From the NCBI RefSeq assembly GCF_021730305.1, contig NZ_CP032674.1:1907001-1971000 (forward strand): 64,000 nt of DNA, given 5' to 3'. This DNA is from Xanthobacter sp. YC-JY1 (lineage in GTDB: Bacteria > Pseudomonadota > Alphaproteobacteria > Rhizobiales > Xanthobacteraceae). A model generated the notes under the pieces. It had not been told where the DNA came from. It did not search any database and saw only the letters and a program-made list of their open reading frames with translations. A program made the translations under genes and the position numbers. Shown piece by piece: positions 7,804-43,152 of this stretch. The first letter of the stretch is position 1. Each line of letters starts with the position of its first letter.

Positions 7804-9098
7804 CAGCGGGCCTGCAGGCGGATGTGGACGAGATAGGGTTCGATGGCGACCAGCGTGCGGTCCAGCGCGCCGCCCAGCGACGTCACCGCCGCGTGGGCCG
7901 CATCCGCCATCTCGCCATGCAGCTGCGGGTCCTTGATGAGGGCATAGGCGGCGCGGGCGATGCCCAGCGCGTCGGTGACCTCCGCCGCGCCCTCATCCGC
8001 ATCGAGCCGCTCGTAGATGTTGGCGAAGTTCCACACATGGGGGCCGTGCAGCACCACCGCGCCGAGCTTCGCCGGCTCGATGGGGTTCTGCCCGCCATGC
8101 TCCACCAGCGAGCCGCCCATGAAGACCACCGGTGCCATGCGATAGAACAGGCCCAGCTCGCCGATGGTGTCGGCGATGTAGATGTCGGTCTCGCGGTCCG
8201 GCAACTCGCCGAGGCTGCGCTGACGGGTGGCGAGGTCCGCCGCCTGGGCGAGCGCCGCCACATCCAGCCCGCGCTCGGGATGGCGGGGGGCGATGACGGT
8301 GACCAGCTCCGGGATCTTGGAGGTCAGGATCTCGTGCGCTTCCAGGATCAGCGCCTCCTCGCCCTCATGGGTGGAGGCGGCGAGCAGGATCGGCCGCTTG
8401 CCGAGCGCCTTGTCGAGCCGCTGGAGCTCCGCCGGGTCGGCGGAGGGGGGCGGCACGTCGAATTTCAAATTGCCGCAGACTTCCACCCGCGGCGTGCCCA
8501 GCGCCCGGAAGCGCGCGCCGTCCTCCTCGCTCTGGGCGAGGCACAGGTCCACGCGGGAGAGCAGCGCCCGCGCGCTCTTGGGCAGCTTCTTCCAGCGGTT
8601 GGCGGAGCGCTCGGACAGCCGGCCGTTGACCAGCACGACGGGCGTGCCGCGCCGGCCCAGCTCCGCGAGCAGGTTCGGCCACAGCTCGGATTCGGCGAGC
8701 AGCACGAGGTCCGGCGACCAGTGGTCGAGGAAGCGGGCGACGAAGGAGCGGGCGTCCAGCGGCACGAACTGATGGATGACGCCGGGGGGCGCCCGCCGTT
8801 CGGCCACGCGGCTGGAGGTGAGCGTGCCGGAGGTGAGCAGCACGCGGAAGCCGCGCTGGCTCAGCCGCTCGATCAGCGGCAGGACGGAGATGACCTCGCC
8901 GACGCTGGCGCCATGCACCCACACCAGCGGGCCCGGGGGGCGCTCGGTGCTGGCATAGCCGCGCCGCTCGGACAGGCGCGCCGGATCTTCCTTGCCCTTG
9001 CGGACGCGATAGGAGAGCCACGCCGGCGCCAGCAGCGCCGCCACGGAACTCGCCCGCCGGTAGGCCCGGAGGGTGAGAGGCAGCTTGCGCCCCTTCAT
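7803..9098 (-). CDS. waaA: 3-deoxy-D-manno-octulosonic acid transferase
   Basis: A 431-residue GT-B glycosyltransferase that adds Kdo to lipid IVA. Family motifs seen are VWVHGASVGEV in the N-terminal glycosyltransferase domain (with an early membrane-anchoring Ala/Leu segment), the CLAQSEEDGARFRALG region, and the C-terminal FMGGSLVEHGGQNPIEPA loop that binds CMP-Kdo. I chose ATG 9098 (MKGRKLPLTL); the longer frame upstream only overlaps the acyltransferase gene. It lies 10 bases after the acyltransferase stop and overlaps the lpxK start by one base, forming a lipid A-Kdo operon. Confidence 0.95.
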   Translation of the reverse strand: MKGRKLPLTLRAYRRASSVAALLAPAWLSYRVRKGKEDPARLSERRGYASTERPPGPLVWVHGASVGEVISVLPLIERLSQRGFRVLLTSGTLTSSRVAERRAPPGVIHQFVPLDARSFVARFLDHWSPDLVLLAESELWPNLLAELGRRGTPVVLVNGRLSERSANRWKKLPKSARALLSRVDLCLAQSEEDGARFRALGTPRVEVCGNLKFDVPPPSADPAELQRLDKALGKRPILLAASTHEGEEALILEAHEILTSKIPELVTVIAPRHPERGLDVAALAQAADLATRQRSLGELPDRETDIYIADTIGELGLFYRMAPVVFMGGSLVEHGGQNPIEPAKLGAVVLHGPHVWNFANIYERLDADEGAAEVTDALGIARAAYALIKDPQLHGEMADAAHAAVTSLGGALDRTLVAIEPYLVHIRLQAR

Positions 9099-9108
9099 GC
9101 CCGCGCCT

Positions 9109-9807
9109 TCATCGACGCGACGTCCGCGCGGCCAGCGCCTCGGCCCGGCGGGTGACGTCCTCAAGGCTGGCCTGCACCTGGTCACGGGCGGCGATGAGGC
9201 CGGCCTCGTCCACGTCGCGGTCGACCCAGATCGGCGCGCCAGCGACGGCCGCGCCCTTCCCGAACGGCAGGTTCAGGCTCGCGCGGTCCCAGCTCTTCAG
9301 GGTGATGCGATTACGGGTCGCCATGGCGACCGGGATGATAGGGCGTCCCGAGTAGCGTGCAATGGTAACGACGCCCATGCCGACCTTGCGGGCGATCTTG
9401 GGCACGTCGGCGGTCATCGCCACGTTGATGCCTTCCGCAAGGGTATCCAGCATCTGATAGGTGGCGGAGACCGCCCCCTTGCGGTGGAAGTCGCGCTTGG
9501 AGGTGGCGCCGGAGCCGCGAATGGTTCCGACGCCGAGCTTCTCGGCGGCGATGGCGTTGATCTCCGCATCCGCATGGCGGGAGATCAGCACCTTGGCCTT
9601 GTGGTGGGGCTTCATGGCGAACGGCGTGAGGAAATGCTGGCCGTGCCAGAAGGTGACGATCACCGGCAGGTGCTCGTCGATGGCCTCGAAGACGTCGGGC
9701 GGTTCGACGACGAAATCGGTCGTATGCGCCACCAGCTTGAAATAGGACGCAAACGTCGTTCCCGCTGCCACCTTGAAGGCGCGGTTTGTCCTCAGTCGCC
9801 GCCACAT
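9109..9807 (-). CDS. Lysophospholipid acyltransferase family protein (DUF374)
   Basis: A 232-residue protein of the DUF374 branch of the PlsC/LPLAT superfamily. The TFWHGQHFLTPF segment supplies the family's catalytic His (an H-x4-D variant typical of DUF374), and SRHADAEINAIAAEKLGVGTIRGS gives the RG(S/T)-type acyl-acceptor motif; MTADVPKIARKVGMGVV is also typical. It sits directly before waaA and lpxK, so a role in acylating lipid A or a lysophospholipid precursor is likely. Which acyl donor and acceptor it uses cannot be read from the sequence. Confidence 0.82.
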   Translation of the reverse strand: MWRRLRTNRAFKVAAGTTFASYFKLVAHTTDFVVEPPDVFEAIDEHLPVIVTFWHGQHFLTPFAMKPHHKAKVLISRHADAEINAIAAEKLGVGTIRGSGATSKRDFHRKGAVSATYQMLDTLAEGINVAMTADVPKIARKVGMGVVTIARYSGRPIIPVAMATRNRITLKSWDRASLNLPFGKGAAVAGAPIWVDRDVDEAGLIAARDQVQASLEDVTRRAEALAARTSRR

Positions 9808-12849: not shown

Positions 12850-13635
12850 TCAGTGGGGCTTCGAGGGGGCGGTTAGGTCGGTCTGAACCTCAAATTGCGA
12901 AGAGAGGCTTTGTGCTGGCTTGGTTGCGGAGGTCAGGAAGTTCTGGCTCGCGATATAATTGAATTTCCCGGTTTCTGCAGCGTAAAGTAAGCGAAAGCCT
13001 AGCGTGCCGACCGCCCAGATGATGGCTCGGACGGTGCTTTTTAGCCCGTGGGGAATGGGTTTGTCCTCGAACGACGAGACTTTTTCGAAGCCTACGGTGC
13101 GCAAAAGCTGTCGCATCGATGTGGCTGTGAATGAAATTTCATGTGTAACGTCGCCATAGCGGATGCTATTTCCGAAAATGCCGGATGCATTTGGTGTGTG
13201 TATGAAGATAATTCCGTTCGGCTTCAGTATGCGGAATATCTCATCTGATATCTGGAATAATTCACATTTTGATAAATGCTCGAAGATGTCGAAGCAAATT
13301 ACGACATCAAGGCTGTTGGATTGTGTGTTTGAAAGAGCTTGATTGATATCACTTAGATATGCTTCTGGTACGCCTCGGCTGTGTGCCAGGTCGATCATTT
13401 CGGGAGAGATGTCGAAACCCGATATGTTTTTATAGTTCGCCTGTTTCAGCCAGTAGATGACGTCTCCGGCGCCGCATCCGACATCGAGTATTTTTATTTT
13501 ACGATCCGCCGGAATATGGCGACTGATGAATGAGTTTATGTGCGGGCCGCGTACGGAATATCCAATAGATGCATCATGGCCGCCTTGGTTGCTCGATACG
13601 TACGCATTGTATAGACGCGTTTGCCATTCTTGCAT
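12850..13635 (-). CDS. Class I SAM-dependent methyltransferase, AT-rich
   Basis: A 261-residue methyltransferase. Motif I is ILDVGCGAGDVIYWL, the acidic end of strand 2 follows in SGFDISPEMIDLA, and motif IV-like FDIFEHLSKCELF with RILKPNGIIFIHTPN completes the SAM-binding fold. This subgroup resembles methyltransferases of polysaccharide and natural-product clusters (UbiG/COQ3-like), but no such cluster is adjacent. Base composition is strikingly low: two 60-base stretches inside the gene count 38% and 47% G+C against about two-thirds around it, and codon use is unlike the neighbours. It is probably a recent acquisition. Its substrate is unknown. Confidence 0.82.
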   Translation of the reverse strand: MQEWQTRLYNAYVSSNQGGHDASIGYSVRGPHINSFISRHIPADRKIKILDVGCGAGDVIYWLKQANYKNISGFDISPEMIDLAHSRGVPEAYLSDINQALSNTQSNSLDVVICFDIFEHLSKCELFQISDEIFRILKPNGIIFIHTPNASGIFGNSIRYGDVTHEISFTATSMRQLLRTVGFEKVSSFEDKPIPHGLKSTVRAIIWAVGTLGFRLLYAAETGKFNYIASQNFLTSATKPAQSLSSQFEVQTDLTAPSKPH

Positions 13636-15950: not shown

Positions 15951-15977
15951 ACCCCTCTCCCGCACGGGGAGAGGGGG
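15951..15977. repeat. CCCCTCTCCC hairpin repeat, copy 1
   Basis: A 10-bp stem, CCCCTCTCCC / GGGAGAGGGG, around a short loop in the 134-base gap between ilvI and ilvH. The same arms occur at 39491-39515 with a different loop, so this is an intergenic repeat rather than a gene-specific signal. A second hairpin, GCCGGGCGG / CCGCCCGGC, precedes it near 15900-15920. Either could slow transcription or protect mRNA between the two subunit genes. Confidence 0.5.
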
Positions 15978-16560: not shown

Positions 16561-17706
<1,146 letters not shown>

Positions 17707-17725
17707 TCCTCACTCGCTGAGGCAC

Positions 17726-17762
17726 GCCCCGGAGCGGCGAAGGCTGCTCCGGGGCTGTTTTA
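17726..17762 (+). terminator. Intrinsic terminator of ilvC
   Basis: A 10-bp perfect stem GCCCCGGAGC / GCTCCGGGGC (17726-17735 with 17746-17755) followed by TGTTTTA. It lies 20 bases beyond the ilvC stop and in front of the convergent NTF2-like gene. Confidence 0.85.
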
Positions 17763-17787
17763 TGGGCGGGGGCTCACCGATCCCTGG

Positions 17788-18273
17788 TCATTTTCCCGGA
17801 GCCGCGCGCGCGTTCTGATCCACCGGGAAAGCCATGAACCGGGCGATGCGCCAGAGGCCGTCGGGGTCGCGGCGGAAGATGTCCATGCCCTCGTCGCGCG
17901 AGAGCGCATTGCCGTCCGGCCGCTCGGTGAGCACCCAGGTGAGGCGCACCATCGCGAGGTCGCCGGACACCAGGATTTCGTGGATCTGGCAGAGATAAGC
18001 GAGCTTGCCGGCCGACTTGGCTAGGGCCTTGGCGATGCGCGCGCAGACGGCCGCCTTGTCCCCCGCCGGGGCGCCCTGGACGTCGGATTTCAGGTCGTCG
18101 GCGAACAGGTCGCAGGTGGCGGCGGCATCGCCCCGGTTGAACGCCTCGGTCCAGGCGGCGAGGCGAGCGCGGATGGCGGCTTCGACGGCGCGATCCGCCG
18201 CGGACCGATCCTCGGCGTGAGCGAGTGTCGGCGCCAGCAGAAGAGCGAGGACAAGGACGGCGCGGCGCAGCAT
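17788..18273 (-). CDS. Secreted NTF2-like (SnoaL/DUF4440) protein
   Basis: A 161-residue exported protein. The signal peptide is MLRRAVLVLALLLAPTLAHA; I chose this ATG (18273) over one 63 bases upstream because it gives a clean signal sequence. The mature part has the cone-shaped NTF2 fold pattern: helix AIRARLAAWTEAFNRGDAAATCDLFADD, then strands with VSGDLAMVRLTWVLTE and DPDGLWRIARFMAF. Such proteins may be enzymes or ligand carriers. Three cysteines are present. It is the last gene of a possible minus-strand group with the cupin and esterase genes, 66 bases after the cupin start-proximal neighbour ends. Confidence 0.7.
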   Translation of the reverse strand: MLRRAVLVLALLLAPTLAHAEDRSAADRAVEAAIRARLAAWTEAFNRGDAAATCDLFADDLKSDVQGAPAGDKAAVCARIAKALAKSAGKLAYLCQIHEILVSGDLAMVRLTWVLTERPDGNALSRDEGMDIFRRDPDGLWRIARFMAFPVDQNARAAPGK

Positions 18274-32106: not shown

Positions 32107-32172
32107 GCTGCGTTCGCTTAAGTAGCCGCGCGGGCTTGTGCGTTGCCTTCGCTCAGGCGCCGCGCGGGCTTA
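32107..32172. repeat. Imperfect 35-base tandem repeat
   Basis: Two copies of about 31 bases at 32107-32137 and 32142-32172 share the ending GCCGCGCGGGCTT and most of the preceding TTCGCT segment. The second copy runs into the allA stop codon. The short gap between convergent genes and the degenerate copies suggest a local duplication without obvious function. Confidence 0.5.
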
Positions 32173-32643
32173 GAGAGCCACCGCCATCGCCGGAATGGGG
32201 ATCACCTCTTCGTCGTCCGGCCCGTAGTCGCGCCACATGAGGAGTGCGAACGGGGCGGGGGCATCGAGCACGGTCAGCGGGGCGTGCCAGGTGCCCGGCG
32301 CCAGCGTGATGCCCTGTCCCGGCGCGGGCAGGAAGGCTTCCGCCGCCGTGAGGTCCGGCCCGTCCTCGGCCGTGCCCGGTGCCACCACGATCACCCAGCG
32401 CGCGGCCGCCATGGGCACGAAGCTCTGGGAGGTGAAGACGTGCCGCTCGATCACCTCCACCGCCACCGGCTGCGGCACCGGCGAAGCGAGGATGATAGAG
32501 AGGCTGGCGGGCACATCGGGCTTCAGGTTGGCTAGCCCCTTGTCGAAGGAGGTGCGCACGCCCACCGTCTCTGGCACCGCGAACACCTCGCCATAGGGCG
32601 CGAAGGCCGCCGCCGTCAGCGGGCGCGGGACGAGAGGCCTCAC
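32170..32643 (-). CDS. allA: Ureidoglycolate lyase
   Basis: A 157-residue protein of the ureidoglycolate lyase (AllA) family, which splits ureidoglycolate into glyoxylate and urea at the end of allantoin breakdown. The N-terminal PLTAAAFAPYGEVF, the central RHVFTSQSFVPMAAARWVIVV and the cupin-fold segment ITLAPGTWHAPL are characteristic, including the conserved His in GTWH. The start is GTG 32643, overlapping the hydrolase stop in a GTGA arrangement. It is the last gene of the nine-gene operon and gives the strongest hint that the substrate is a ureide. Confidence 0.88.
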   Translation of the reverse strand: MRPLVPRPLTAAAFAPYGEVFAVPETVGVRTSFDKGLANLKPDVPASLSIILASPVPQPVAVEVIERHVFTSQSFVPMAAARWVIVVAPGTAEDGPDLTAAEAFLPAPGQGITLAPGTWHAPLTVLDAPAPFALLMWRDYGPDDEEVIPIPAMAVAL

Positions 32644-33893
32644 GCGCCGCCGCCCGCCACCGCGAGCACCGCGTGCAGCAGCACGTTGGCGCCGGCGGCG
32701 CACTCCTCCGGCTTGGCGGATTCCAGCTCGTTGTGGCTCACGCCATCCTTGCACGGCACGAAGATCATGGCGGTGGGCACCACCGTGGCGAGGTGGAAGC
32801 TGTCATGCCCCGCGCCGGAGACGATGGGCCGGTGCGGCAGGCCGAGCCGGTCGGCGGCGGCGGCGATGGCGCCGGTCATGGCCGGGTCGAAATGGGTGGG
32901 TTCCTTGCGCCAGATGGTGTCGAGGCGGATGTCCACCTTCCGCCGCGCGGCGATCTCCTTGACCTGCGTCTGAAGCGCCTTGTCGAGAGCATCCAGAATG
33001 GCGGCGTCCGGCGTGCGGAACTCGCCGGAAAAGGCGATCTCGCCGGGGATCACATTGCGCGAGGGCCGCGCGATCACCGCCTCGCCGACGCTGCCCACCG
33101 CGTTCGGCCCGTGGGCCTTGGCGAGGCCCTCGATGGCGAGAACGATCTCGGAGAGGGCGGCGAGCGCATCCTTGCGCAGATGCATGGGCGTGGAGCCCGT
33201 ATGGCTCTCGAAGCCGCTGATGCGAGCGTCATACCAGATGATGCCCTGGCCGTGCTCCACCACGCCGATGGGAAGGCCCTCGGCCTCCAGGATCGGCCCC
33301 TGCTCGATGTGCAGTTCGAGGAAGCCGGAGAATTTCCGCGCGCCGACCTCTTCCGGGCCGCGATAGCCGATGGTGTCCAGCGCCGCGCCGACGCTGATGC
33401 CCTCCGCATCGGTGCGGGCGAGGATGTCGGAGACCGGCAGGTCGGCCACATAGCCCGCCGAGCCCATCATGGCCGGGGCGAAGCGGGAGCCTTCCTCGTT
33501 GGTCCAGTTGCAGACGCAGATGGGCGCCTCGGTCTCGATGCCCGCGTCATTGAGCGTGCGCACCACTTCCAGCGCCGCCATCACGCCCAGGATGCCGTCG
33601 AACTTGCCGCCGGTGGGCTGGGTGTCGAGATGCGAGCCGATGCCGAGCGGCGGCCTGGTCATGTCCTTCCCTGGCCGCAAGGCGAACATGTTGCCGAGGC
33701 CGTCCACGCTCACGGTGCAGCCGGCGGCCTCGCAGGCGGCGCGGAACCAGTCGCGCACCTGCCGGTCCTCCTCCGACAGAGTGAGACGGCGCACGCCGCC
33801 CTTGTCGGTGCCACCGAAGCGGGCGGTCTCGATGATGGAGCTCCAGAGGCGGTCGGCGTTAATGGTCAGGTTGGTGGCGGGTGCGGACATCAA
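32640..33893 (-). CDS. M20-family Zn hydrolase (allantoate amidohydrolase/N-carbamoylase type)
   Basis: A 417-residue amidohydrolase of the AllC/HyuC/beta-ureidopropionase group that hydrolyses ureido (N-carbamoyl) groups. The zinc ligands are in GSHLDTQPTGGKFDG and NWTNEEGSRF, with further ligands in HIEQGPILE and the C-terminal His of GVSHNELE; SGAGHDSFHLA is the conserved substrate region. Together with allA downstream it could convert allantoate to ureidoglycolate; N-carbamoyl amino acids are the alternative substrates. Its ATG overlaps the ABC ATPase stop and its stop overlaps the allA start. Confidence 0.87.
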   Translation of the reverse strand: MMSAPATNLTINADRLWSSIIETARFGGTDKGGVRRLTLSEEDRQVRDWFRAACEAAGCTVSVDGLGNMFALRPGKDMTRPPLGIGSHLDTQPTGGKFDGILGVMAALEVVRTLNDAGIETEAPICVCNWTNEEGSRFAPAMMGSAGYVADLPVSDILARTDAEGISVGAALDTIGYRGPEEVGARKFSGFLELHIEQGPILEAEGLPIGVVEHGQGIIWYDARISGFESHTGSTPMHLRKDALAALSEIVLAIEGLAKAHGPNAVGSVGEAVIARPSRNVIPGEIAFSGEFRTPDAAILDALDKALQTQVKEIAARRKVDIRLDTIWRKEPTHFDPAMTGAIAAAADRLGLPHRPIVSGAGHDSFHLATVVPTAMIFVPCKDGVSHNELESAKPEECAAGANVLLHAVLAVAGGGA

Positions 33894-34882
33894 TTCACCG
33901 GAACGGGGGTTTCAGCCAGAACACAGCGCACGTCGCGGCCGGGGCCGAGATGGACGAGCGGCGGCGGCGCAGTGGTGCAGCGCGGCTGCACGAAGGCACA
34001 GCGCGGCGCAAAGGAGCAGGCGACGGGCGCCTTGTCGAGGGAGGGCGGCGTGCCGGGGATGGTCTCCAGCCGAGCCCCGCGCGCCGCCCCATGCACGGTG
34101 GAGGCGAGCAGCCCGCGCGGATAGGGATGCTGCGGCGTGCGGACGATCTCGCCCAGCGTGCCGGTCTCCACGATCTGGCCGGCATACATCACCGCCACCT
34201 TGTCGCAGATCTCGATGGCGACGCCGATGTCGTGGGTGACGAAGATCACCGACATGCCCATCTCCCGCTGCAACTCGCGCAGCAGCAGCAGGATCTGGAT
34301 CTGCACGGTGGCATCGAGCGCGGTGGTGGGCTCGTCCGCCAGCAGGATCTTGGGGCGGCAGGCCAAAGCGAGGGCGATCATGGCGCGCTGGCGCATGCCG
34401 CCGCTCATCTCGTGGGGATAGGCATCCAGCCGGCGCTTTGCCGATGGGATGCGCACCAGCTCCAGCATCTCCAGCGCGCGGGCGGTGGCGTCGCGCTGGC
34501 TCGCGCCCTCGTGGCGCATGACCGATTCCGAAATCTGCCGGCCGATGGTGTAGACCGGATCCAGTGCCAGAGCCGGCTCCTGGAAGATCATGGAGACGGT
34601 GCGCCCGCGGAAGTCGGAGAGCGTGGCGTCGTCCATGGCGAGCACATCCTGCCCCGCCACATGCACGCTGCCGGAGATCACCGAGCGCCGCTTGGGCAGG
34701 AGGCGCATGAGCGCGCGCATGGTGACGCTCTTGCCGGAGCCGGATTCACCCAGCAGCCCGAGCACCTCGCCCTCGCCGAGGGAGAGGGACACGCCGTTCA
34801 CCGCATGGACGGTGCGCTCGCCGGTGAAGCGGATGGTGAGGTCGCGGATGTCGACGAGGGGCGTTGGGACAGCAGCCATCAT
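33890..34882 (-). CDS. Peptide-type ABC transporter ATPase (DppD-like)
   Basis: A 330-residue ATPase of the oligopeptide/nickel importer family. Walker A GESGSGKSV, signature EMSGGMRQRAMIALALA and Walker B ILLADEPTTALD are followed by the Opp/Dpp-type C-terminal extension with cysteines (CSFAPRCAFVQPRC) that in relatives binds an Fe-S cluster or stabilises the subunit. It pairs with the DppF-like ATPase, but unusually the amidase and AtzG-like genes lie between the two. Starts at ATG 34882, overlapping the amidase stop (ATGA). Confidence 0.9.
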   Translation of the reverse strand: MMAAVPTPLVDIRDLTIRFTGERTVHAVNGVSLSLGEGEVLGLLGESGSGKSVTMRALMRLLPKRRSVISGSVHVAGQDVLAMDDATLSDFRGRTVSMIFQEPALALDPVYTIGRQISESVMRHEGASQRDATARALEMLELVRIPSAKRRLDAYPHEMSGGMRQRAMIALALACRPKILLADEPTTALDATVQIQILLLLRELQREMGMSVIFVTHDIGVAIEICDKVAVMYAGQIVETGTLGEIVRTPQHPYPRGLLASTVHGAARGARLETIPGTPPSLDKAPVACSFAPRCAFVQPRCTTAPPPLVHLGPGRDVRCVLAETPVPVN

Positions 34883-36321
34883 GCCTCCTCCGGCATCTGT
34901 TCATGAAAATCGGTTTCGCGCTGGAAGGCTGCGCCGATGCGGATCAGCGTCGCCTCGGCGAACGGCCGGCCGATCACCTGCAGGCCGACGGGAAGTCCCG
35001 TGCCGGTGAAGCCGCAGGGCAGGCTCACGGTCGGCAGGCCGAGATAATTCACCGGGCGGGTGAAGCGGGTGATGCGCTGGATCATCGCCTCCGCGCCCGG
35101 CCCGCCGTCCGTGTCGGTCTCGGCGATGGTGGGGGCGGGCATGGGTGCGGTGGGGGCGAGCACGGCATCCACCTCGGCAACTGCCGCGAGGTGCTCGGCC
35201 AGCGCCGGCCCGCGCCAGCGGAGCGCCTCCAGATAGGTCACGGCGGGTATGGCGAAGCCGTTCTCCAGCCGGGAGCGGATCTGCGGGCCGTAATCCTGCG
35301 GGCGCTCCAGAAGCCACGCCTTGTGACTGGCGGAGGCCTCGCAGTTCAGCACCACCTGCGAGGCGCCGGAGAGCTTCATCTGGTCGGGCAGCGACACGCT
35401 GACGATGCGCGCACCGCCGCGCTTCAGAGTGGCGATCGTCTCGTCCAGCACGCGGGCGACCTCGGGGTCGAGATCGTCCACATAGAAGGCATCGGGGATA
35501 CCGATGGTGAGGCCCTTGAGGCGGCCTTCGGCGGCGGCGAGATAGTCCGGCACCGGGGCGGTGGCGGTGGTGGGATCTAGCGGATCATGCCCGGCCATGA
35601 GGCTGAGCAGGATGGCGCAATCCTCTACCGTGCGGGCCAGCGGGCCGATGGTGTCGAGGGAGAAGGAGAGCGGCATGGCGCCGTAGCGGCTCACGAGCCC
35701 CACAGTGCTCTTCAGCCCCGTGACGCCGCAGAAATGCGCGGGCATACGGATGGAGCCGCCGGTGTCCGAGCCGAGCGCGCCATAAGTGAGCCGCGCCGCC
35801 ACCGCCGCTCCCGAGCCGGAGGAGGAGCCGCCGGTGACATGGGCGGTGTTCCACGGGTTCCGCGCCGCACCGAAATGGGCGTTGTGGCCGGTGGGGCCAT
35901 AGGCGAATTCCACCATGTGCAGCGCGCCGAGCCGCACCGTGCCCGCCGCCTTGATGCGGGCGAGCGCCGTGGAGTTCGTTGTCGCCACCTTCTCCCGCAG
36001 GATCTTCGAGCCGCAGGTGGAGACGTGGCCGTCCTCGTAGAACATGTCCTTGTGGGCGAGGGGCAGCCCGTGCAGCAGACCCTTCACCTCGCCCTGCGCC
36101 AGCGCGGCATCGGCCGCATCGGCGGCGGCCAGCGCCGCTTCGGGTTCGATGGCGATGAAGGCGTTGATGGCGGGCTGGAGCCGCGCGATGCGGGCCAGGC
36201 ACGCCTCGGTTGCTTCGCGGGAGGAGAGCACGCCGGCGCGGATGGCCATGGCGGCTTCCGCCAGCGTCATCAGCGCCGGATCGGCCGGTGCGCCGGCGGA
36301 GGGGCGGAGCGACAGGCTCAT
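34879..36321 (-). CDS. Amidase-signature hydrolase, AtzE-like
   Basis: A 480-residue Ser-Ser-Lys amidase. The catalytic Lys is in LPLAHKDMFYEDG, the cis-Ser in TGGSSSGSGAAVA and the nucleophile in GSDTGGSIRMPAH. The small upstream protein resembles AtzG, the obligate partner of AtzE (1-carboxybiuret amidohydrolase), so the pair is probably an AtzE/AtzG-like complex. In that case the substrate would be a small nitrogen-rich carboxylated amide; other amidase families (GatA-like, mandelamidase-like) remain possible. Both its ends overlap neighbours by four bases. Confidence 0.85.
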   Translation of the reverse strand: MSLSLRPSAGAPADPALMTLAEAAMAIRAGVLSSREATEACLARIARLQPAINAFIAIEPEAALAAADAADAALAQGEVKGLLHGLPLAHKDMFYEDGHVSTCGSKILREKVATTNSTALARIKAAGTVRLGALHMVEFAYGPTGHNAHFGAARNPWNTAHVTGGSSSGSGAAVAARLTYGALGSDTGGSIRMPAHFCGVTGLKSTVGLVSRYGAMPLSFSLDTIGPLARTVEDCAILLSLMAGHDPLDPTTATAPVPDYLAAAEGRLKGLTIGIPDAFYVDDLDPEVARVLDETIATLKRGGARIVSVSLPDQMKLSGASQVVLNCEASASHKAWLLERPQDYGPQIRSRLENGFAIPAVTYLEALRWRGPALAEHLAAVAEVDAVLAPTAPMPAPTIAETDTDGGPGAEAMIQRITRFTRPVNYLGLPTVSLPCGFTGTGLPVGLQVIGRPFAEATLIRIGAAFQRETDFHEQMPEEA

Positions 36322-36533
36322 TGGCCGCCCTCCTTCGGCTCCGCGCAGGGCCGCTGCACCGCGAGGAAGGTCGCCGGCTCCAGATCGAACGGCAGGGTGC
36401 CGGCGATGGCCGAGAAAGCGGCGAGGCCCGGCGAAATGCCGGAAGCGATGCGCGCCGCATCACTGGCGGGAAGATCGAGGCCGGCGGCGCGGATGATGGC
36501 GGCGGCGTCTTCAGACGAAAGATGCTGGCTCAT
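36318..36533 (-). CDS. AtzG-like (DUF4089) small amidase partner
   Basis: A 71-residue protein overlapping the amidase start by four bases and the dppF-like stop by four bases. It has a helix-forming N-terminus (SSEDAAAIIRAAGLDLP), a second helix, and then LPFDLEPATFLAVQRP, like the GatC-type C-terminal arm of AtzG that wraps the amidase. The gene order (small protein, then amidase) is that of atzG-atzE. The similarity is by pattern only and the sequence is short, so the assignment is probable, not certain. Confidence 0.65.
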   Translation of the reverse strand: MSQHLSSEDAAAIIRAAGLDLPASDAARIASGISPGLAAFSAIAGTLPFDLEPATFLAVQRPCAEPKEGGQ

Positions 36534-37591
36534 GCGGCGACCTCCGTCGCGGCGGGCGCGCGGCTATGGCCGGAGCCCGGGATCACCATGTGGCAGGCGG
36601 CGAGATGCGCATCGGGCGCCGTATCGCCCGGCGTCGCCGGGGAGAGCGCCGGGCCCACCCGCCCGCATACCTCTTCCGCGAAGGAACAACGGGTGTGGAA
36701 GCGGCAGCCGGCGGGCGGATCGATGGGGTTGGGCGGATCGCCCGAGAGCGGCGGCGTCTCGGTGCGCTTGTCCGGGTCGAGGGCCGGCATGGCGGCGAGC
36801 AGAGCGCGCGTATAGGGGTGGGCGGGGGCCTCCCACACCTGATCCACCGGCCCCACCTCCACCACCTGTCCGAGATACATCACCAGCACGCGGTCGGAGA
36901 TGTAGCGGACCACGTTGAGGTCGTGGCTGATGAAGACATAGGTGAGGCCGAACTCGCGCTTGAGGTCGGTGAGCAGATTCAGCACCTGCGCTTCCACCGA
37001 CTTGTCGAGCGCCGAGACCGCCTCGTCGAGGATCACGAGCCGGGGGTTCAGCGCGAGGGCGCGGGCGATGTTGACGCGCTGGCGCTGGCCGCCGGAGACC
37101 TCATGGGGATACCGGTTGGCGAAGACCTCGGGGCGCAGGCCCACCTTGCCCATCAGCTCACGGGCAAGCGCGCGTGCTTCCTTGTCGGCGACGCCGTGGA
37201 CCTTGGGGCCGAAGGCGATGCTGTCCTCGATGGTGAGGCGCGGGTTCAGGGACGCATAGCTGTCCTGAAACACCATCTGCATGCCGCGCCGGAACTCGCG
37301 CATGGAGAGGCTGTAGCCGACGACCTGGCCGTCGAACAGGATCTCGCCGGAGGTGCGCGGCATGAGGTGCATGAGCAGGCGCGCGGTGGTGGACTTGCCG
37401 CAGCCGCTCTCGCCCACGATGCCGAGCGTCTCGCCCTTGGCGACGGCGAAGGACACGTCGTCCACCGCCCGCACGGTCTTCTTCTCGGCGAACAGGCCGC
37501 CGCCGATGGGGAAGTGCTTGGTGAGGCTGTTGACGGCGAGCAGCGGCTGGGCCGGTCCGCCGAGGTCCTCGAGAGGTTCGATGGTGCTCAA
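36530..37591 (-). CDS. Peptide-type ABC transporter ATPase (DppF-like)
   Basis: A 353-residue ATPase. Walker A GESGCGKST, signature EVSGGQRQRVNIARALA and Walker B LVILDEAVSALD are present, with the Opp/Dpp C-terminal cysteine motif (CRFHTRCSFAEEVC). The reading frame continues far upstream, but only as a shadow of the permease gene. I place the start at TTG 37591, where it overlaps the permease stop (TTGA); this gives a normal DppF N-terminus (STIEPLEDLGG). No ATG is available before the Walker A region. Its stop overlaps the AtzG-like start. Confidence 0.88.
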   Translation of the reverse strand: MSTIEPLEDLGGPAQPLLAVNSLTKHFPIGGGLFAEKKTVRAVDDVSFAVAKGETLGIVGESGCGKSTTARLLMHLMPRTSGEILFDGQVVGYSLSMREFRRGMQMVFQDSYASLNPRLTIEDSIAFGPKVHGVADKEARALARELMGKVGLRPEVFANRYPHEVSGGQRQRVNIARALALNPRLVILDEAVSALDKSVEAQVLNLLTDLKREFGLTYVFISHDLNVVRYISDRVLVMYLGQVVEVGPVDQVWEAPAHPYTRALLAAMPALDPDKRTETPPLSGDPPNPIDPPAGCRFHTRCSFAEEVCGRVGPALSPATPGDTAPDAHLAACHMVIPGSGHSRAPAATEVAA

Positions 37592-38469
37592 TTGCGGATG
37601 TCCATGGCGCTGCGCAGCCCGTCGCTGAGCATGTTGAAGCAGATGGAGACGGCGAAGATCATCACGCCCGGCAGCGCCGCGACGCCCGGATTGACGTAGA
37701 TGGCGGTGCGCAGGGTGTTCAGCATCAGGCCCCACTCGGGCTCCGGCGGCCGGGTGCCGAGGCCGAGGAAGGAGAGGCCCGCCGCGAGGATCATGGAGAC
37801 GGAGATGAGCCCCGTCGCATAGACGAAGATCGGCCCCAGCACGTTGCCCAGCATGTGCACGCGCATGATGGTGAGCGCCGAGGCACCCGACGCCCGCGCT
37901 GCATCCACGAAGTCCAGCGAGCGCACCGAGGTGGTGACGCTCTCCGCCACGCGGGTGATCTGCGGCACGAACACGACGGTGAGCGAGACGATGGAATTGA
38001 CGATGCCGGCGCCCAGCACGCCGGAGATGGCGATGGCCAGCAGCACGGAGGGGAAGGCGTAGAACACGTCGATCGTACGCATGATGATCGTGTTGACCTT
38101 GCCGCCGAGATACCCCGCCAGCAGCCCGAGGCTGGTGCCGATGCCGAAGGCGAGGATCACCGGCAGGATGCCGATGAGCAGCGAGAGGCGCCCGCCATAG
38201 ACGAGGCGGGAGAGCATGTCGCGGCCGAGCTCGTCGGTGCCCAGCGGATAGCCCGGCGTGCCGATGGGGCGCAGCCGGCGGATCATGGAGCCCTGGTAGG
38301 GATCGGCGAGGCCGAGCCAGGGCGCGAAGATGGCGGCGAGCACGATGAGGATGAGGATGGCCGCGCAAGCCATGCTCACCTTGTCGCGGGAGAGGCGGCG
38401 GGCCACCGTCGCCCAGTAGCCGCGGGCCTTCTCGACGGGGGCCGCCTCGAGGGCGGCGTCGCTGGTCAT
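37588..38469 (-). CDS. Peptide-type ABC transporter permease (DppC-like)
   Basis: A 293-residue inner-membrane permease. After an N-terminal cytoplasmic stretch and first helix (CAAILILIVLAAIFAPWLG) come the conserved GTDELGRDMLSRLVYGGR segment and the EAA loop DAARASGASALTIMRVHMLGN. An in-frame GTG at 38475 has better spacing from AAGAGGG than the ATG at 38469, so the protein may be two residues longer. The stop overlaps the dppF-like TTG start. Confidence 0.92.
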   Translation of the reverse strand: MTSDAALEAAPVEKARGYWATVARRLSRDKVSMACAAILILIVLAAIFAPWLGLADPYQGSMIRRLRPIGTPGYPLGTDELGRDMLSRLVYGGRLSLLIGILPVILAFGIGTSLGLLAGYLGGKVNTIIMRTIDVFYAFPSVLLAIAISGVLGAGIVNSIVSLTVVFVPQITRVAESVTTSVRSLDFVDAARASGASALTIMRVHMLGNVLGPIFVYATGLISVSMILAAGLSFLGLGTRPPEPEWGLMLNTLRTAIYVNPGVAALPGVMIFAVSICFNMLSDGLRSAMDIRN

Positions 38470-38477
38470 CGCCACGA

Positions 38478-39422
38478 TCAGGCCCTCTTGATGCGCGGGT
38501 CGATCGCCGCCTGGGCGATGTCCACTACGAGGTTGAGGAAGACGAAGAACAGCGCCAGCACGAGGATCGTGCCCTGCAGCAGCGGCAGGTCGCGTTGGAA
38601 GATCGCCGAGTTCAAAAGGAAGCCGGTGCCCGGCCAGGAGAAGACCGTCTCGATGAGGATCGAGCCGCCCAGCAGATAGCCGAGCTGGAGGCCCATCACG
38701 GCGATGGCGGTGGGCAGGGCGTTCTTCACCACATGGCGGAACACCTGGGTCTCGCGCAGGCCCTTGGAGCGCAGCGCCTCGACGAAATCCTGCGAGAGGA
38801 TGTCGCCGGTCAGCGCGCGCACCGTGCGCGTCACGATGCCCATGGGGATCACCGACATGGTGACGGCGGGCAGGATGAGGAAGCGCAGATGCTCCCAGTT
38901 CCACGCCCAGCCGCCCGGCCCCATGCCCACGGCGGGCAGCCAGTTGAGCCACACCGAGAAGATGATGACCAGCACCATGCCCAGCCAGTAGTGGGGTACG
39001 GAGACGCCGGCCACCGCGATGGAGGTGGCGAGCTTGTCCACCCAGGTGTTGCGGAAATAGCCGGCGATGAGGCCGAAGAAGGCGCCCATGACGAAGCCGA
39101 TGAAGGCGGCCGTCACGGCGAGGATGAAGGTGTTGCCCACCGCCGCTGTGACTTCGCTGAGCACGGGTCGGCCGGTGGCGATGGAGGTGCCTAGATTGCC
39201 GTGCAGGGCCTTCCAGATCCAGATGCCGAACTGCACCGGCAGCGGCTGGTCGAAGCCGTAGGCCGCGCGCATCTGCGCCGCGAGTTCCGCGGAAGCGTCG
39301 GGCGGGAGCACCGCCACCAGCGGGTCGCCGGGTGTGATGTGCACCAGAAGGAAGCACACCAGCGCCACCGAGACGACGATGGGGATCACGTAGACGATGC
39401 GCCTGAGGACATAGACCAGCAC
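38478..39422 (-). CDS. Peptide-type ABC transporter permease (DppB-like)
   Basis: A 314-residue permease with six predicted helices. The opening VLRRIVYVIPIVVSVALVCF with HITPGDP and the C-terminal ETVFSWPGTGFLLNSAI are DppB/OppB landmarks; the EAA loop is EALRSKGLRETQVFRHVVKN. GTG at 39422 follows AAGGTGG by four bases. It lies 188 bases after the binding-protein gene, a gap containing two hairpins that may let the binding protein be made in excess. Confidence 0.92.
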   Translation of the reverse strand: MLVYVLRRIVYVIPIVVSVALVCFLLVHITPGDPLVAVLPPDASAELAAQMRAAYGFDQPLPVQFGIWIWKALHGNLGTSIATGRPVLSEVTAAVGNTFILAVTAAFIGFVMGAFFGLIAGYFRNTWVDKLATSIAVAGVSVPHYWLGMVLVIIFSVWLNWLPAVGMGPGGWAWNWEHLRFLILPAVTMSVIPMGIVTRTVRALTGDILSQDFVEALRSKGLRETQVFRHVVKNALPTAIAVMGLQLGYLLGGSILIETVFSWPGTGFLLNSAIFQRDLPLLQGTILVLALFFVFLNLVVDIAQAAIDPRIKRA

Positions 39423-39450
39423 GGGGCCACCTTGTGGATGCTGATGGGGC

Positions 39451-39515
39451 GCGGGGCCGGTGGGCCCCGCGTGGGTCGCTTCTGTTCTCCCCCCTCTCCC
39501 CTTGTGGGAGAGGGG
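39451..39515. repeat. Two hairpins between binding protein and permease genes
   Basis: GCGGGGCC/GGCCCCGC at 39451-39470 forms an 8-bp stem, and CCCCTCTCCC/GGGAGAGGGG at 39491-39515 forms a 10-bp stem with the same arms as the repeat at 15951-15977. On the transcribed minus strand neither is followed by a U tract, so they are more likely mRNA-stabilising or attenuating elements after the binding-protein cistron than terminators. Confidence 0.5.
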
Positions 39516-39610
39516 TCGGGGATGAGGGGGAAGGGCTTCTCGGCCCCCGACACCGTCCGGCCGGTGACGGCCCCCTCATCTGTCTCGCGGCTGCGCCGCG
39601 ATCCACCGCC

Positions 39611-41305
39611 TCACTGGCTGATGGACACCGGCGAGAAGTCCACGAACCAGCTCTTGGGCTGCACGAAGCCCTTGATCTTCGGGCTCAGCGCGCGGGGGCC
39701 GACATCGTGGGCGACCCACAGGAAGGCCGCGTCGTCCACCGAGGCCGCGTGCAACTCGGCGAGCGCCGCATCACGCGCGGCGGGATCGAAGGAGTTGCGC
39801 GCCTTCTTCACCAGCTCGTCGAACTTCGGGTTGTTGATGTAGCCCCAGTTGTTGGACACCGGCGGCGCCATGCCGGACTGGAGGAAGCGCACCATGGCGA
39901 AGAAGGGGTCCATGGCGGCGTAAGTGATGTTCACCGCGTTGGAGCCGTTGGCGGAGGGGTCCTTCGCGCCCTTGCGCCAGTTGGTGAACAGCGTGTTCCA
40001 CTCGATCACGTCGAGCTTCACGTCGAAATAGCATTCGGCCAGCGCCTGCTGCAGGTATTCGTTCATGGGCAGGGGCAGCATCTGCCCCGAGCCGGACGCC
40101 GACGTCTGCGTTGTCACCTTCAGCTTCTTGTCGGGGCCGAAGCCGGCCTCCTTCATCAGCTTCTGGCCTTCCTTCACATCATACTTGATCTGGAAGGTGG
40201 GGTTGCCGCGCCAGGGGTGGCCGGGCTCCACGGTGCCGGTGGCGGGGGCCATGAGGCCGCCGAGCAGGCCTTCCTTCATCCCCTCGCGGTCGATGCAGAG
40301 GTTCGCCGCCTTGCGCACCCGGATGTCGTTCCACGGCGAGCCCTCGATGCGGGAGAACTGCCAGGGCCAGACGTGCGGCTGCTCGTTCGCCTCGATCTTG
40401 AAGCCGCGGGACTTCAGCTGGGGCAGGGCGTCGGGCGCCGGTGCCTCGATCCAGTCCACCTGGCCGGCGAGGAGGGCGGCGGTGCGGGCGTTGGCCTCGG
40501 GCATGGGCAGCAGCACCATGCGGTCGGTCTTGGGGATGCGGTCCTTGTCCCAGTAGACGGGGTTCTTCACCAGCTCCAGCCGCTCGCGCGGCACGAAGGC
40601 GGCCATCTTCCACGGGCCGGTGCCGGAGGCGCTGCGGGCGAAGATGGTCCAGGCCGCGGCGGCCTTCGCCTTCGCGTCGGCGCCCTCGGCCGTCTCATAG
40701 AGCTTCTGCCAGTGGGCGGGGCTCGCCATGAACAGGTTGGTGAGGTTGTAGGGCAGGAAGGAGTCCGGCTCCTTGGTGGTCAACTCCACCGTCAGGTCGT
40801 CGATCTTCTTCGCCGATGCGAGGGTGGGCATGCGCGAGGCGGTGACGCCCACCTGGCTGGCATCGAACTGGGGTGCCTCCTTGTTGAGCACCTTGTCCAC
40901 GTTCCACACCACGGCATCGGCGTTGAACGGCGAGCCATCATGGAAGGTCACGCCGGGGCGCAGCTTGAAGACCCACTTGGTCTTGTCCTGATCGTCCACC
41001 TTCCATTCGGTGGCGAGGCCGGGAACGAGGACGCTGGGCTTGGTGGCGGAGGACAGATCCCACAGCACCAGCGCGTCATACATGGTGAGGCCGGTGAAGC
41101 GATTGCCCTCGAAGCCCTGGTCGGGCTGGCCGAGGGTGCGCGGAATGTCGGCAGCCGTCATGCCGATGCGCAGGGTGGTCTCAGCAGCGGCAAAGCCCGG
41201 TACCAGAAGGGCCGGGACGGCGATGGCGCCCCCCGTGGCCACGAGAAAGGCGGCCGTCCGCAGGAGGCGGCTGGCCGGGCTGTTGCGCAGGTCTTTCTTG
41301 AGCAT
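39611..41305 (-). CDS. Peptide-type ABC transporter substrate-binding protein
   Basis: A 564-residue periplasmic binding protein of the DppA/OppA family (SBP family 5). The signal peptide runs from MLKKDLRNSPASRLL through a hydrophobic core to about AAAE at residue 42. The family region KWVFKLRPGVTFHDGSPFNADAVVWN is clear. It is the first gene of the operon. The family imports peptides but also nickel, sugars and small amides; here the downstream ureide and amide hydrolases suggest a ureide-like ligand. Confidence 0.9.
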   Translation of the reverse strand: MLKKDLRNSPASRLLRTAAFLVATGGAIAVPALLVPGFAAAETTLRIGMTAADIPRTLGQPDQGFEGNRFTGLTMYDALVLWDLSSATKPSVLVPGLATEWKVDDQDKTKWVFKLRPGVTFHDGSPFNADAVVWNVDKVLNKEAPQFDASQVGVTASRMPTLASAKKIDDLTVELTTKEPDSFLPYNLTNLFMASPAHWQKLYETAEGADAKAKAAAAWTIFARSASGTGPWKMAAFVPRERLELVKNPVYWDKDRIPKTDRMVLLPMPEANARTAALLAGQVDWIEAPAPDALPQLKSRGFKIEANEQPHVWPWQFSRIEGSPWNDIRVRKAANLCIDREGMKEGLLGGLMAPATGTVEPGHPWRGNPTFQIKYDVKEGQKLMKEAGFGPDKKLKVTTQTSASGSGQMLPLPMNEYLQQALAECYFDVKLDVIEWNTLFTNWRKGAKDPSANGSNAVNITYAAMDPFFAMVRFLQSGMAPPVSNNWGYINNPKFDELVKKARNSFDPAARDAALAELHAASVDDAAFLWVAHDVGPRALSPKIKGFVQPKSWFVDFSPVSISQ

Positions 41306-41557
41306 CGTCGAGTCCTCTTCGGCGCGATGCCCATGCTGGCTAGCAACCCCTGTGCCATGCGGTCGAAGCCGCCGCGATCCTTTGTGCCGCTACGGAATGC
41401 TTGCAACAGTTCGTCGTCAAATCATCAACGAATTACGCATGTGCCCACCTATTAGGCAGAAGCGGTCCATCGCATGCATTTTGGCCTCGCCGGCGTGCGT
41501 GCCGCTTTTCAGCGCGGCCTGCGGGTGCTTCCTTTGGGGCGGGCAGGGGAGGGCGCT

Positions 41558-42265
41558 TTGAAGATTCTGGTTCTCAACGCGAATACCAGCAAAGCCGTGA
41601 CCGATCGCATGGTGGCGGCGCTGGGCCGTCGCGCGCCCGCGGGCGTCGAACTTGTCGGCGTCACGGCCACGTTCGGCGAGCCCTATGTCACCACCCGCCA
41701 ATCCGCGGCGGTGGCGGGCCATGCGGCCCTGGAGGCGGTGGCGTCGGCCGTGGCGAAGGAGCGGGAGGAAGGGCGCCCGCCGTTCGATGCCGCCCTCTAT
41801 GCCTGCTTCGGCGAGCCGGGGCTTGAGGCGCTGCGCGGCGCGTTCGCCTTCCCATTTGCCGGCATGGCCGAGGCGAGCATCCTCACCGCGCTCCAGTTGG
41901 GCGAACGCTTCTCCATCGTGGTGCCGCACGGCGAATGGCCGGCCATGCTGCGCGAGCTGATGCGCCGCACCCATCTGGACGGGCGCTACGCGGGCATCGC
42001 CATGGTCCCCGGCGACGCCCTCGGCCTGTCCGCGCGCCATGCGGACGGCTCCTCGGACAAGACGTGGGCCGTGGCGCGGGTGGTGGAGGAGACCATCGCC
42101 GCGCAGGCGCCCGACGTGCTCATTCTCGGCGGAGCGGCCCTGGCCGGCTATGCGGCCGAGATCGAGGTCGCCGCGCCCCTGCCCGTCATCGATTCCCTCG
42201 AAGCCGGCTTCGAGCAGGCGCTGGCCCTCGCGCGGCTCGGCTCCTGCCGCAGGGAGAGGCGCTGA
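41558..42265 (+). CDS. Asp/Glu (hydantoin/allantoin) racemase-family protein
   Basis: A 235-residue protein opening with ILVLNANTSKAVTDRM, the N-terminal pattern of hydantoin and allantoin racemases. The first catalytic Cys is in LYACFGEPGLEALR. The second, normally in an LGCAG motif, is replaced: the segment reads VLILGGAALAGY. With only one Cys, two-base racemisation is unlikely; a decarboxylase- or isomerase-like role remains possible. I place the start at TTG 41558, four bases after GGGGAGGG; an upstream ATG (41474) would add 28 unrelated residues. It is divergent from the ureide operon, which supports a shared pathway. Confidence 0.75.
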   Translation: MKILVLNANTSKAVTDRMVAALGRRAPAGVELVGVTATFGEPYVTTRQSAAVAGHAALEAVASAVAKEREEGRPPFDAALYACFGEPGLEALRGAFAFPFAGMAEASILTALQLGERFSIVVPHGEWPAMLRELMRRTHLDGRYAGIAMVPGDALGLSARHADGSSDKTWAVARVVEETIAAQAPDVLILGGAALAGYAAEIEVAAPLPVIDSLEAGFEQALALARLGSCRRERR

Positions 42266-42402: not shown

Positions 42403-43152
42403 TTGATCGTTGATCCCCTCTTCTATGCCGCCGCTGTGCCGGCCACCATTGTGGTGGGCCTCTCCAAGGGCGGCTTCACCGGCCTGTCGGTGCTGGGCCA
42501 GCCCATTCTGGCGCTGGTGATGTCGCCCATCCAGGCGGCCGCCATCATCCTGCCGGTGCTGATCGTCCAGGACGTGGTGAGCCTCTACGCCTACTGGCGC
42601 CGCTGGAGCCGGAAGGAGCTGCTGCGCACCCTTCCCGGCGCCATCGCCGGCATCGTTCTGGGCTATCTCCTCGCGGCCTCGGTGTCCGACGCTGCGGTGG
42701 CCTTCGGCATCGGCGTGCTCTCGGTGGCGGAGGCGGGGCGCTCCTTCCTGTCGCGGCGGCTGAAGCGGACGCCGGGGGAGTCCGGTCCCATCGCCGCCGC
42801 GGTGTGGAGCGCCGTTTCCGGCTTCACCAGCATGATCGCCAATGCGGGTGGTCCGCCGTTGATGATCTATCTGCTGCGGCGCCCGCTTCCCGTGCAGCAG
42901 TTCGCGGCGACGGCCACCGCCTTCTTCGCGGTGGTGAACTGGGTCAAGCTGCCGTTCTTCCTCGCGCTGGGTCAGGTCTCGTTCCAGAATCTGGCGACCT
43001 CGGCCGTGCTGATTCCCATCGCCGTGCTCTCGACCATGGCCGGCGTCTGGCTGGTGCGGCGGGTCTCGCCTGAGCGCTTCTTCGGCCTCGTCTATGCCAT
43101 CCTCGCCGTGGTCGGCGTGAAGCTGATCTATGACGGGGTGACGCACTTCTGA
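42403..43152 (+). CDS. TSUP (TauE/SafE) family transporter
   Basis: A 249-residue inner-membrane protein with about seven to eight helices and the internal two-fold repeat of sulfite exporter TauE/SafE proteins: VVGLSKGGFTGLSVLGQPILALV in the first half and AVSGFTSMIANAGGPPLMIYLL in the second. Substrates of the family include sulfite, sulfoacetate and other organosulfur anions. It starts at TTG 42403, as no ATG or GTG precedes the first helix. It stands 137 bases after the racemase-like gene; a functional link is not established. Confidence 0.85.
   Translation: MIVDPLFYAAAVPATIVVGLSKGGFTGLSVLGQPILALVMSPIQAAAIILPVLIVQDVVSLYAYWRRWSRKELLRTLPGAIAGIVLGYLLAASVSDAAVAFGIGVLSVAEAGRSFLSRRLKRTPGESGPIAAAVWSAVSGFTSMIANAGGPPLMIYLLRRPLPVQQFAATATAFFAVVNWVKLPFFLALGQVSFQNLATSAVLIPIAVLSTMAGVWLVRRVSPERFFGLVYAILAVVGVKLIYDGVTHF

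Follow-up and report, generated by a model that had tools for sequence, protein, structure and literature searches.

A predicted sigma-54-controlled operon in Xanthobacter sp. YC-JY1 that probably imports allantoin-type ureides

Allantoin-like ureides are nitrogen-rich products of purine breakdown. We analyzed 64 kb of the genome of Xanthobacter sp. YC-JY1 (NZ_CP032674.1, positions 1,907,001 to 1,971,000; "the window"), which is a single 5.39-Mb contig, and focused on a nine-gene operon there. We believe, with a probability of about 0.6, that this is a nitrogen-scavenging ureide operon under sigma-54 control, and that it imports most likely allantoin or allantoate and feeds it into purine breakdown. 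We found overlapping genes, a sigma-54-type box that is conserved, synteny with enzymes of allantoin breakdown that recurs across genomes, and, elsewhere in this genome, genes that would act in trans. An original prediction, made from the DNA letters, had proposed an importer-plus-hydrolase operon for a ureide-like nitrogen source; this is supported, and we can sharpen it to allantoin-type ureides. That prediction included neither the box nor a divergently transcribed racemase homologue that we found next to it. If our reading is right, we can assign a class of substrates to a family of importers that shares a conserved sigma-54-type promoter across Xanthobacter, Aquabacter and Bradyrhizobium and includes a locus reported to be strongly induced in bacteroids, and an amidase becomes a candidate for releasing nitrogen from ureides.

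Open reading frames and a Pfam scan placed all nine genes on the minus strand in the predicted order: binding protein, two permeases, ATPase, AtzG-like protein, amidase, second ATPase, M20 hydrolase and AllA-like protein. Six four-base overlaps had been claimed, and five are there (TTGA between the OppC-type permease and the first ATPase; ATGA at ATPase/AtzG-like, AtzG-like/amidase and amidase/second ATPase; GTGA at M20/AllA-like). The sixth, between the second ATPase and M20, has four bases only if M20 starts at a TTG one codon earlier; with the ATG start it is 1 bp. The two permease genes are 2 bp apart (the OppC-type one starts with GTG at 38475 or ATG at 38469), and 188 bp separate the binding-protein gene from the OppB-type permease gene. 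The nearest named relative, Xanthobacter aminoxidans (L097; L and G numbers are our labels for loci and genomes), has all nine genes in identical order, with 99% identity for the binding protein and 81% for the AllA-like protein, so we consider the operon to be conserved and not a product of chance.

Evidence for the substrate class comes from the genes found near related importers. In a survey of 297 genomes of the order, 55 had a homologue of the binding protein (E<=1e-90). Of the 26 genomes with both such a homologue and AllA (E<=1e-6), 9 had the two no more than 20 kb apart, compared with 0.27 expected by chance, and because of this we think that gene context favours allantoin-type ureides over peptides. 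PuuE-type allantoinase genes lie beside related importers in L153, L176, L220 and L221; in L221 the amidases are within our 12-kb cut and PuuE and AllA are about 15 kb away. We also tabulated 29 loci with this cut, and in 20 of them one or more of racemase, M20, AllA, hydantoinase and PuuE are present, although the table is biased because L219-L221 and L232-L235 were taken for having AllA near. Nineteen of the 20 are firm; L172 was counted through a marginal hydantoinase match alone, which a larger search did not reproduce. Twenty control loci centred on M20 genes had no AllA, PuuE or racemase and 12 of them had a hydantoinase, so the hydantoinase marker says little.

The AllA-like protein falls in a 15-row group of a 34-row tree (open fork, 92/96). 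Looking at 1.5-kb flanks, PuuE was present in 6 and hydantoinase in 2 of the 12 distinct other loci that this group has besides L098, while PuuE was present in 3 of the 17 loci outside it. The PuuE genes of L224 and L236 are slightly under the TIGR03212 cut-off, with 395 and 373 bits.

Two loci, L153 and L176, are the most informative on how the parts are combined. L153, on a contig of a Hyphomicrobiales metagenome-assembled genome (MAG), has the order binding protein, permeases, ATPase, AtzG-like protein, amidase, ATPase, with a sigma-54-type box upstream of the binding-protein gene and a two-cysteine racemase at the far end (17126-17854). A PuuE gene (8303-9232, 66% to that of our host) and an AllC-like gene (7061-8290) are both divergent from its importer, and the locus has no AllA match. 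In Aquabacter cavernae (L176), a racemase homologue and a PuuE-like gene (309.9 bits, cut-off 424.6) lie upstream of an operon whose last gene is the M20, again with no AllA match. Homologues also occur in 34 plasmid records, six of which we inspected. A racemase homologue comes after the importer on plasmids of Rhizobium johnstonii, Agrobacterium, Neorhizobium and Dinoroseobacter; on Klebsiella pneumoniae plasmid NZ_CP099745.1 (L241; binding protein 61%) the importer is followed by an M20 that is 49% identical to ours and passes NF006769; on a Paracoccus plasmid neither follows.

A box with the sequence TGGCACAGGGGTTGC lies upstream of the first gene, and we take it to be sigma-54-type by the -24/-12 consensus. 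It is the single exact match to TGGCAC-N5-TTGC in the window, where 0.18 are expected and 18 of 100 shuffles have at least one. For homologues we used the pattern TGGC[AG][CT]N5TTGC within 450 bp upstream. It matched upstream of 164 of 173 homologous binding-protein genes, which are mostly from Bradyrhizobium and close kin and are not independent (L074 and L169 may be one genome twice), and upstream of none of 284 other genes that we sampled in 24 loci. In the same loci, box density was 2.1 per kb upstream of binding-protein genes and 0.015 per kb elsewhere. Besides Bradyrhizobium, the box is found in Xanthobacter, Aquabacter, the MAG locus L153 and the more distant L077, L078, L085, L086, L232 and L233. 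With a -24/-12 box upstream of its first gene, the operon is predicted to have a sigma-54-dependent promoter. Taken together, synteny and the box support the earlier claim of a dedicated importer tied to ureide/hydantoin enzymes.

As for the activator, 6 of 14 regions (those of the window, L097, L098, L156, L176 and L233) carry a TGC-N11-GCA dyad at 100-114 bp upstream of the box. This dyad was found upstream of 14 of 83 operon binding-protein genes compared with 4.25 after shuffling, and upstream of 8 of 79 others compared with 3.55; we regard NtrC as the activator as suggestive only. NifA was rejected: TGT-N10-ACA was found for 2 of the 83 operon genes, where shuffling gave 2.15, and for 5 of the 79 others, where it gave 2.75. 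In Table 2 of PMC6515984, bll7921 and blr7922 of a related Bradyrhizobium locus are marked neither as NifA+RpoN1 nor as FixK2 targets. For Bradyrhizobium sp. DOA9, PMC13207237 predicts an RpoN box, TGGCATAGCCATTGC, in front of an ABC (ATP-binding cassette) substrate-binding protein gene and reports atzE as down in rpoN mutants. The same 15-mer is upstream of the binding-protein gene in many of our Bradyrhizobium loci, and the DOA9 genes are presumably orthologues of these, which would lend indirect support to RpoN-dependent expression.

The other genes that an allantoin route would use are elsewhere in the host genome. A cluster at 4.52 Mb has a PuuE allantoinase fused to UraD (TIGR03212, 518 over 425; TIGR03164, 201 over 96), a separate AllC-like M20 that passes NF006775 (488.1 over 479), and neighbours that look by eye like urate oxidase and 5-hydroxyisourate (HIU) hydrolase, neither of which gave an NCBIfam match at 1e-30. 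The gene for urease alpha lies at 2.64 Mb. A second allantoinase candidate (L184, 0.61 Mb, host genome G000 606817-608148; TIGR03178, 377 over 358) sits in another transporter neighbourhood. The Pfam scan found no allantoinase in the operon, so the proposal that the operon fully degrades such a substrate by itself is not supported. It had also been suggested that the substrate may for this reason enter below allantoin, but this is not forced, given the PuuE-UraD fusion, the AllC-like M20, the second candidate and urease elsewhere. Allantoicase had no match in the host genome, but 14 control genomes were silent too, so this absence is not usable. PF04115 has one match in the whole genome, the operon's AllA-like protein, and because of this the ureidoglycolate from the purine cluster may depend on it.

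We infer the substrate and each catalytic step from these observations, and the route would be as follows. Under nitrogen shortage, sigma-54 RNA polymerase, probably with NtrC, would transcribe the operon, and the binding protein and ABC importer would bring a ureide into the cell, with allantoin or allantoate as the likeliest candidates. If it is allantoin, the PuuE allantoinase from the 4.52-Mb cluster would open it. The M20 enzymes, the operon's and the AllC-like one of the purine cluster, would strip the carbamoyl group from allantoate or a related ureido acid. The AllA-like protein could then split ureidoglycolate to glyoxylate and urea, which urease would finish, and the AtzGE-like amidase may act on some ureide intermediate.

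Table 1. Features of the operon and its upstream region (positions in the window)
Feature	Position	Strand	Evidence
Periplasmic binding protein, SBP_bac_5 (peptide/nickel) family, 564 aa	39611..41305	-	PF00496 2.9e-72
Spacer between binding-protein and OppB-type permease genes, 188 bp, strong hairpins	39423..39610	-	fold of 39423-39613: -107.8 kcal/mol, z -4.2
ABC permease, OppB type	38478..39422	-	PF00528 (BPD_transp_1) 1.4e-41
ABC permease, OppC type	37588..38475	-	PF00528 2e-22, PF12911 7.7e-11
ABC ATPase, OppF type	36530..37591	-	PF00005 9.7e-34, PF08352 7.9e-21
GatC/AtzG-like small protein, 71 aa	36318..36533	-	profile match GatC 2df4_C; weak Foldseek GatC matches
AtzE/GatA-like amidase	34879..36321	-	PF01425 3.3e-114; AtzE models below cut-offs
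ABC ATPase, OppD type	33890..34882	-	PF00005 1.4e-29, PF08352 3.6e-14
M20 hydantoinase/carbamoylase-family amidohydrolase	32640..33890	-	PF01546 9.8e-28; TIGR01879 433 over 204
AllA-family (ureidoglycolate lyase) protein, divergent subfamily	32170..32643	-	PF04115 109 bits over 23, 2e-31
Sigma-54-type -24/-12 box	41343..41357	-	sole exact match in window
TGC-N11-GCA dyad, possible activator (NtrC-like) site	41442..41458	-	recurrence 100-114 bp upstream of box
Asp/Glu/hydantoin-racemase homologue, divergent from operon	41558..42265	+	PF01177 5.5e-35

Several observations weigh against an operon for allantoin-type ureides, and the first group of these concerns the enzymes. The nearest named solved chains to the operon's M20 are N-carbamoyl-beta-alanine and N-carbamoyl-L-amino-acid hydrolases (8c46, 8apz, 8aq0; 406-427 bits); the unnamed family member 5tp4 has 436 bits, ureidoglycolate amidohydrolase 188-191 and AllC (including 1z2l) 169-172. 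The M20 keeps the family motifs and passes NF006769, an NCBIfam subfamily named allantoate amidohydrolase (642 over 452), but is far under the AllC equivalog TIGR03176 (227 against 598). The earlier "AllC-type" label is thus doubtful, with NF006769 for it and the equivalog and the solved chains against it, and we rejected this M20 as the genome's AllC in view of the separate M20 in the purine cluster. The AllA-like protein does not reach the cut-off of any NCBIfam AllA model (its best score is 85 bits, where 160 are required), and an alignment shows that it lacks the N-x-G..R-[YF]-H stretch found in AllA from E. coli and P. putida. It retains E-R-H, Q-x-F-x-P and W-H, and from its sequence we would class it as AllA-like only and not as AllA; a structure predicted without an alignment was unusable (pLDDT, the predicted local distance difference test score, 35.7). 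In E. coli, AllA is a nickel-dependent urea-releasing lyase (PMC3793230).

The racemase homologue adds to this. Although the best solved match of the racemase homologue is allantoin racemase 5lfd (62.9 bits), only the first cysteine is kept (ACFGEPG) and the second is aligned with glycine. Allantoin and hydantoin racemases have two active-site cysteines. The neighbour in L097 has the first cysteine and Gly as in the window, L098 and L176 have Gly-Ala-type replacements, and L075, L085 and L153 carry both cysteines.

The second group concerns distribution. The box is missing for 9 of the 173 binding-protein genes (L061, L062, L075, L076, L219, L220, L221, one of two in L085, and the second binding protein of L121) and for all 6 distant plasmid homologues, one of which has just 214 bp upstream. 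L244 and L076 have the importer without any partner. L079-L084 have importer relatives (44-53%) among several amidases without a ureide partner, and are possibly a sister group for other amides. Of 80 named loci, 70 have the AtzG-like/amidase pair only (the main Bradyrhizobium group); the other ten are six truncated loci without a partner and four richer ones (L097, L098, L153, L176).

The main rival explanation is use of substituted hydantoins or their N-carbamoyl amino acids, which we consider unlikely. Here the importer would carry these compounds, the M20 would be a carbamoylase, and the racemase homologue and AllA-like protein would act on analogues. The M20 speaks for this, as it is nearest to N-carbamoyl-beta-alanine/N-carbamoyl-amino-acid hydrolases and passes the hydantoinase/carbamoylase-family model TIGR01879, and in Klebsiella the gene behind the importer encodes another M20 of this subfamily. 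Hydantoinases adjoining the importer in L075/L234 and L077/L235 pass the D-hydantoinase model TIGR02033. However, the host genome has five hydantoinase relatives and none of the four tested pass that model (one of them, L184, is the second allantoinase candidate), and AllA and PuuE, which recur with the importer or with the AllA subfamily, are enzymes of the allantoin route.

A more speculative idea, to which we give a rather low probability, is that the AtzGE-like amidase is an unrecognised ureide-nitrogen enzyme, acting on ureidoglycolate, ureidoglycine or allantoate, that is able to replace AllA, as in L153. AllA without an amidase match within 12 kb is seen in L098 and L219. The data bear out an exchange between AllA and the amidase pair only in part. 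It is weakened by G034, where a 59% amidase sits some 12 kb away from the importer, and by G142, G170 and G252, in which 55-56% amidases occur at a greater distance on the importer's contig. On the same idea, blr7916-blr7922 of Bradyrhizobium diazoefficiens would serve nodule bacteria in taking up the ureides of soybean nodules.

As described in PMC8125078, blr7916-blr7922 encodes an amidase together with a putative peptide transporter made up of two binding proteins, two membrane proteins and two ATPases, and its expression rises strongly in the bacteroids of both soybean and Aeschynomene afraspera. In PMC6515984, bll7921 and blr7922 belong to the core microoxic proteome, and they are increased 6.5-fold and 23.1-fold, respectively, in bacteroids from soybean. 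We matched this locus to our Bradyrhizobium loci, including B. diazoefficiens L116, by gene content and orientation only. Like the window, these loci have the importer with two membrane proteins and two ATPases, the amidase, the same order, a sigma-54-type box, and binding proteins with 79-86% identity to ours; unlike the window, they have a second, divergent binding protein and no M20, AllA or racemase. Among the nodules compared in PMC8125078, allantoin was specific to those of soybean. A nodule-ureide reading is weakened because A. afraspera nodules, which export amides, also induce blr7916-blr7922. Ureide uptake by bacteroids in ureide-exporting legumes would bear directly on symbiotic nitrogen flow.

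That the operon is a peptide or opine importer with unrelated hydrolases strikes us as very improbable. It is true that every transport part is of the peptide/nickel ABC family (SBP_bac_5, BPD_transp_1, and ABC_tran with oligo_HPY in both ATPases), and bll7921 is listed as a putative oligopeptide-binding protein (PMC6320959). However, the binding protein is under the cut-off of every listed NCBIfam peptide or nickel binding-protein model, and the partners that recur near the importer are ureide or amide enzymes. An alignment also shows non-acidic residues in place of the acidic stretch that precedes the shared DP in DppA. That stretch has a role in binding the peptide amino group. In the open-access literature, we found no paper on a substrate for this importer or for its Bradyrhizobium counterpart blr7916-blr7922. 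The host genome has a solitary second binding-protein gene (G000 5084070-5085608, which is L186 9065-10585), 55% identical to the operon's and resembling the second binding protein of Bradyrhizobium; no sigma-54-type box was found upstream on its strand.

Carboxylated biuret had been named as a possible substrate, and the AtzE-like amidase with a small partner gene in front would suit a biuret or 1-carboxybiuret route, in which the two proteins would form a true 1-carboxybiuret hydrolase and triazine-derived or biuret-like compounds would enter through the importer. We give this little credence and reject that substrate, with the amidase below both NCBIfam AtzE cut-offs (342.5 and 335.8 bits against 461 and 425.75) and nearer to GatA 4wj3 (321 bits) than to AtzE 6c62 (252 bits) among solved chains, and with no AtzD, AtzF or AtzH Pfam family among the nine proteins. 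The AtzG-like label of the 71-residue partner is supported and not proven. No Pfam family matches this protein at 0.001; a profile built from 18 homologues gave 13 matches, with no AtzG chain among them and the GatC subunit 2df4_C weakly on top (E 4e-4). GatC chains took five of nine Foldseek places for its model (mean pLDDT 75), all of them weak (E 1.6 or worse).

We see the operon as a new variant of ureide-utilisation clusters that have already been described. Enterobacterial atzG-atzE-atzH clusters adjoin an ABC transporter, a transaminase and an allantoate amidohydrolase (PMC6219798). An AtzG/AtzE-type pair, an ABC transporter and an M20-type hydrolase are common to both, whereas our operon is without atzH, ggt and a transaminase, has an AllA-like protein and a divergent racemase homologue, places the amidase between two ATPase genes, and has a sigma-54-type box. 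The Klebsiella form of these clusters is presumably the one with hpx gene names. The E. coli all regulon (AllA, AllC; PMC3793230) likewise combines an M20 amidohydrolase with an AllA-family protein; unlike there, both proteins of the window are outside the equivalog cut-offs, an ABC importer is present and the PuuE-type allantoinase is encoded elsewhere.

A few minor features of the window remain. An Rfam scan of the 64 kb gave no match. Within the spacer behind the binding-protein gene (39423-39613) there is an inverted repeat, CCTCTCCC...GGGAGAGG, with a second copy at 15954, and the spacer is perhaps an intergenic repeat that lowers expression of the genes beyond the binding protein. The racemase homologue is followed by a TauE/SafE-family permease (42403-43152, plus strand). 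A methyltransferase-like gene (12850-13635, minus strand) lies in a stretch of low G+C (0.577, compared with about 0.68) that may have been acquired.

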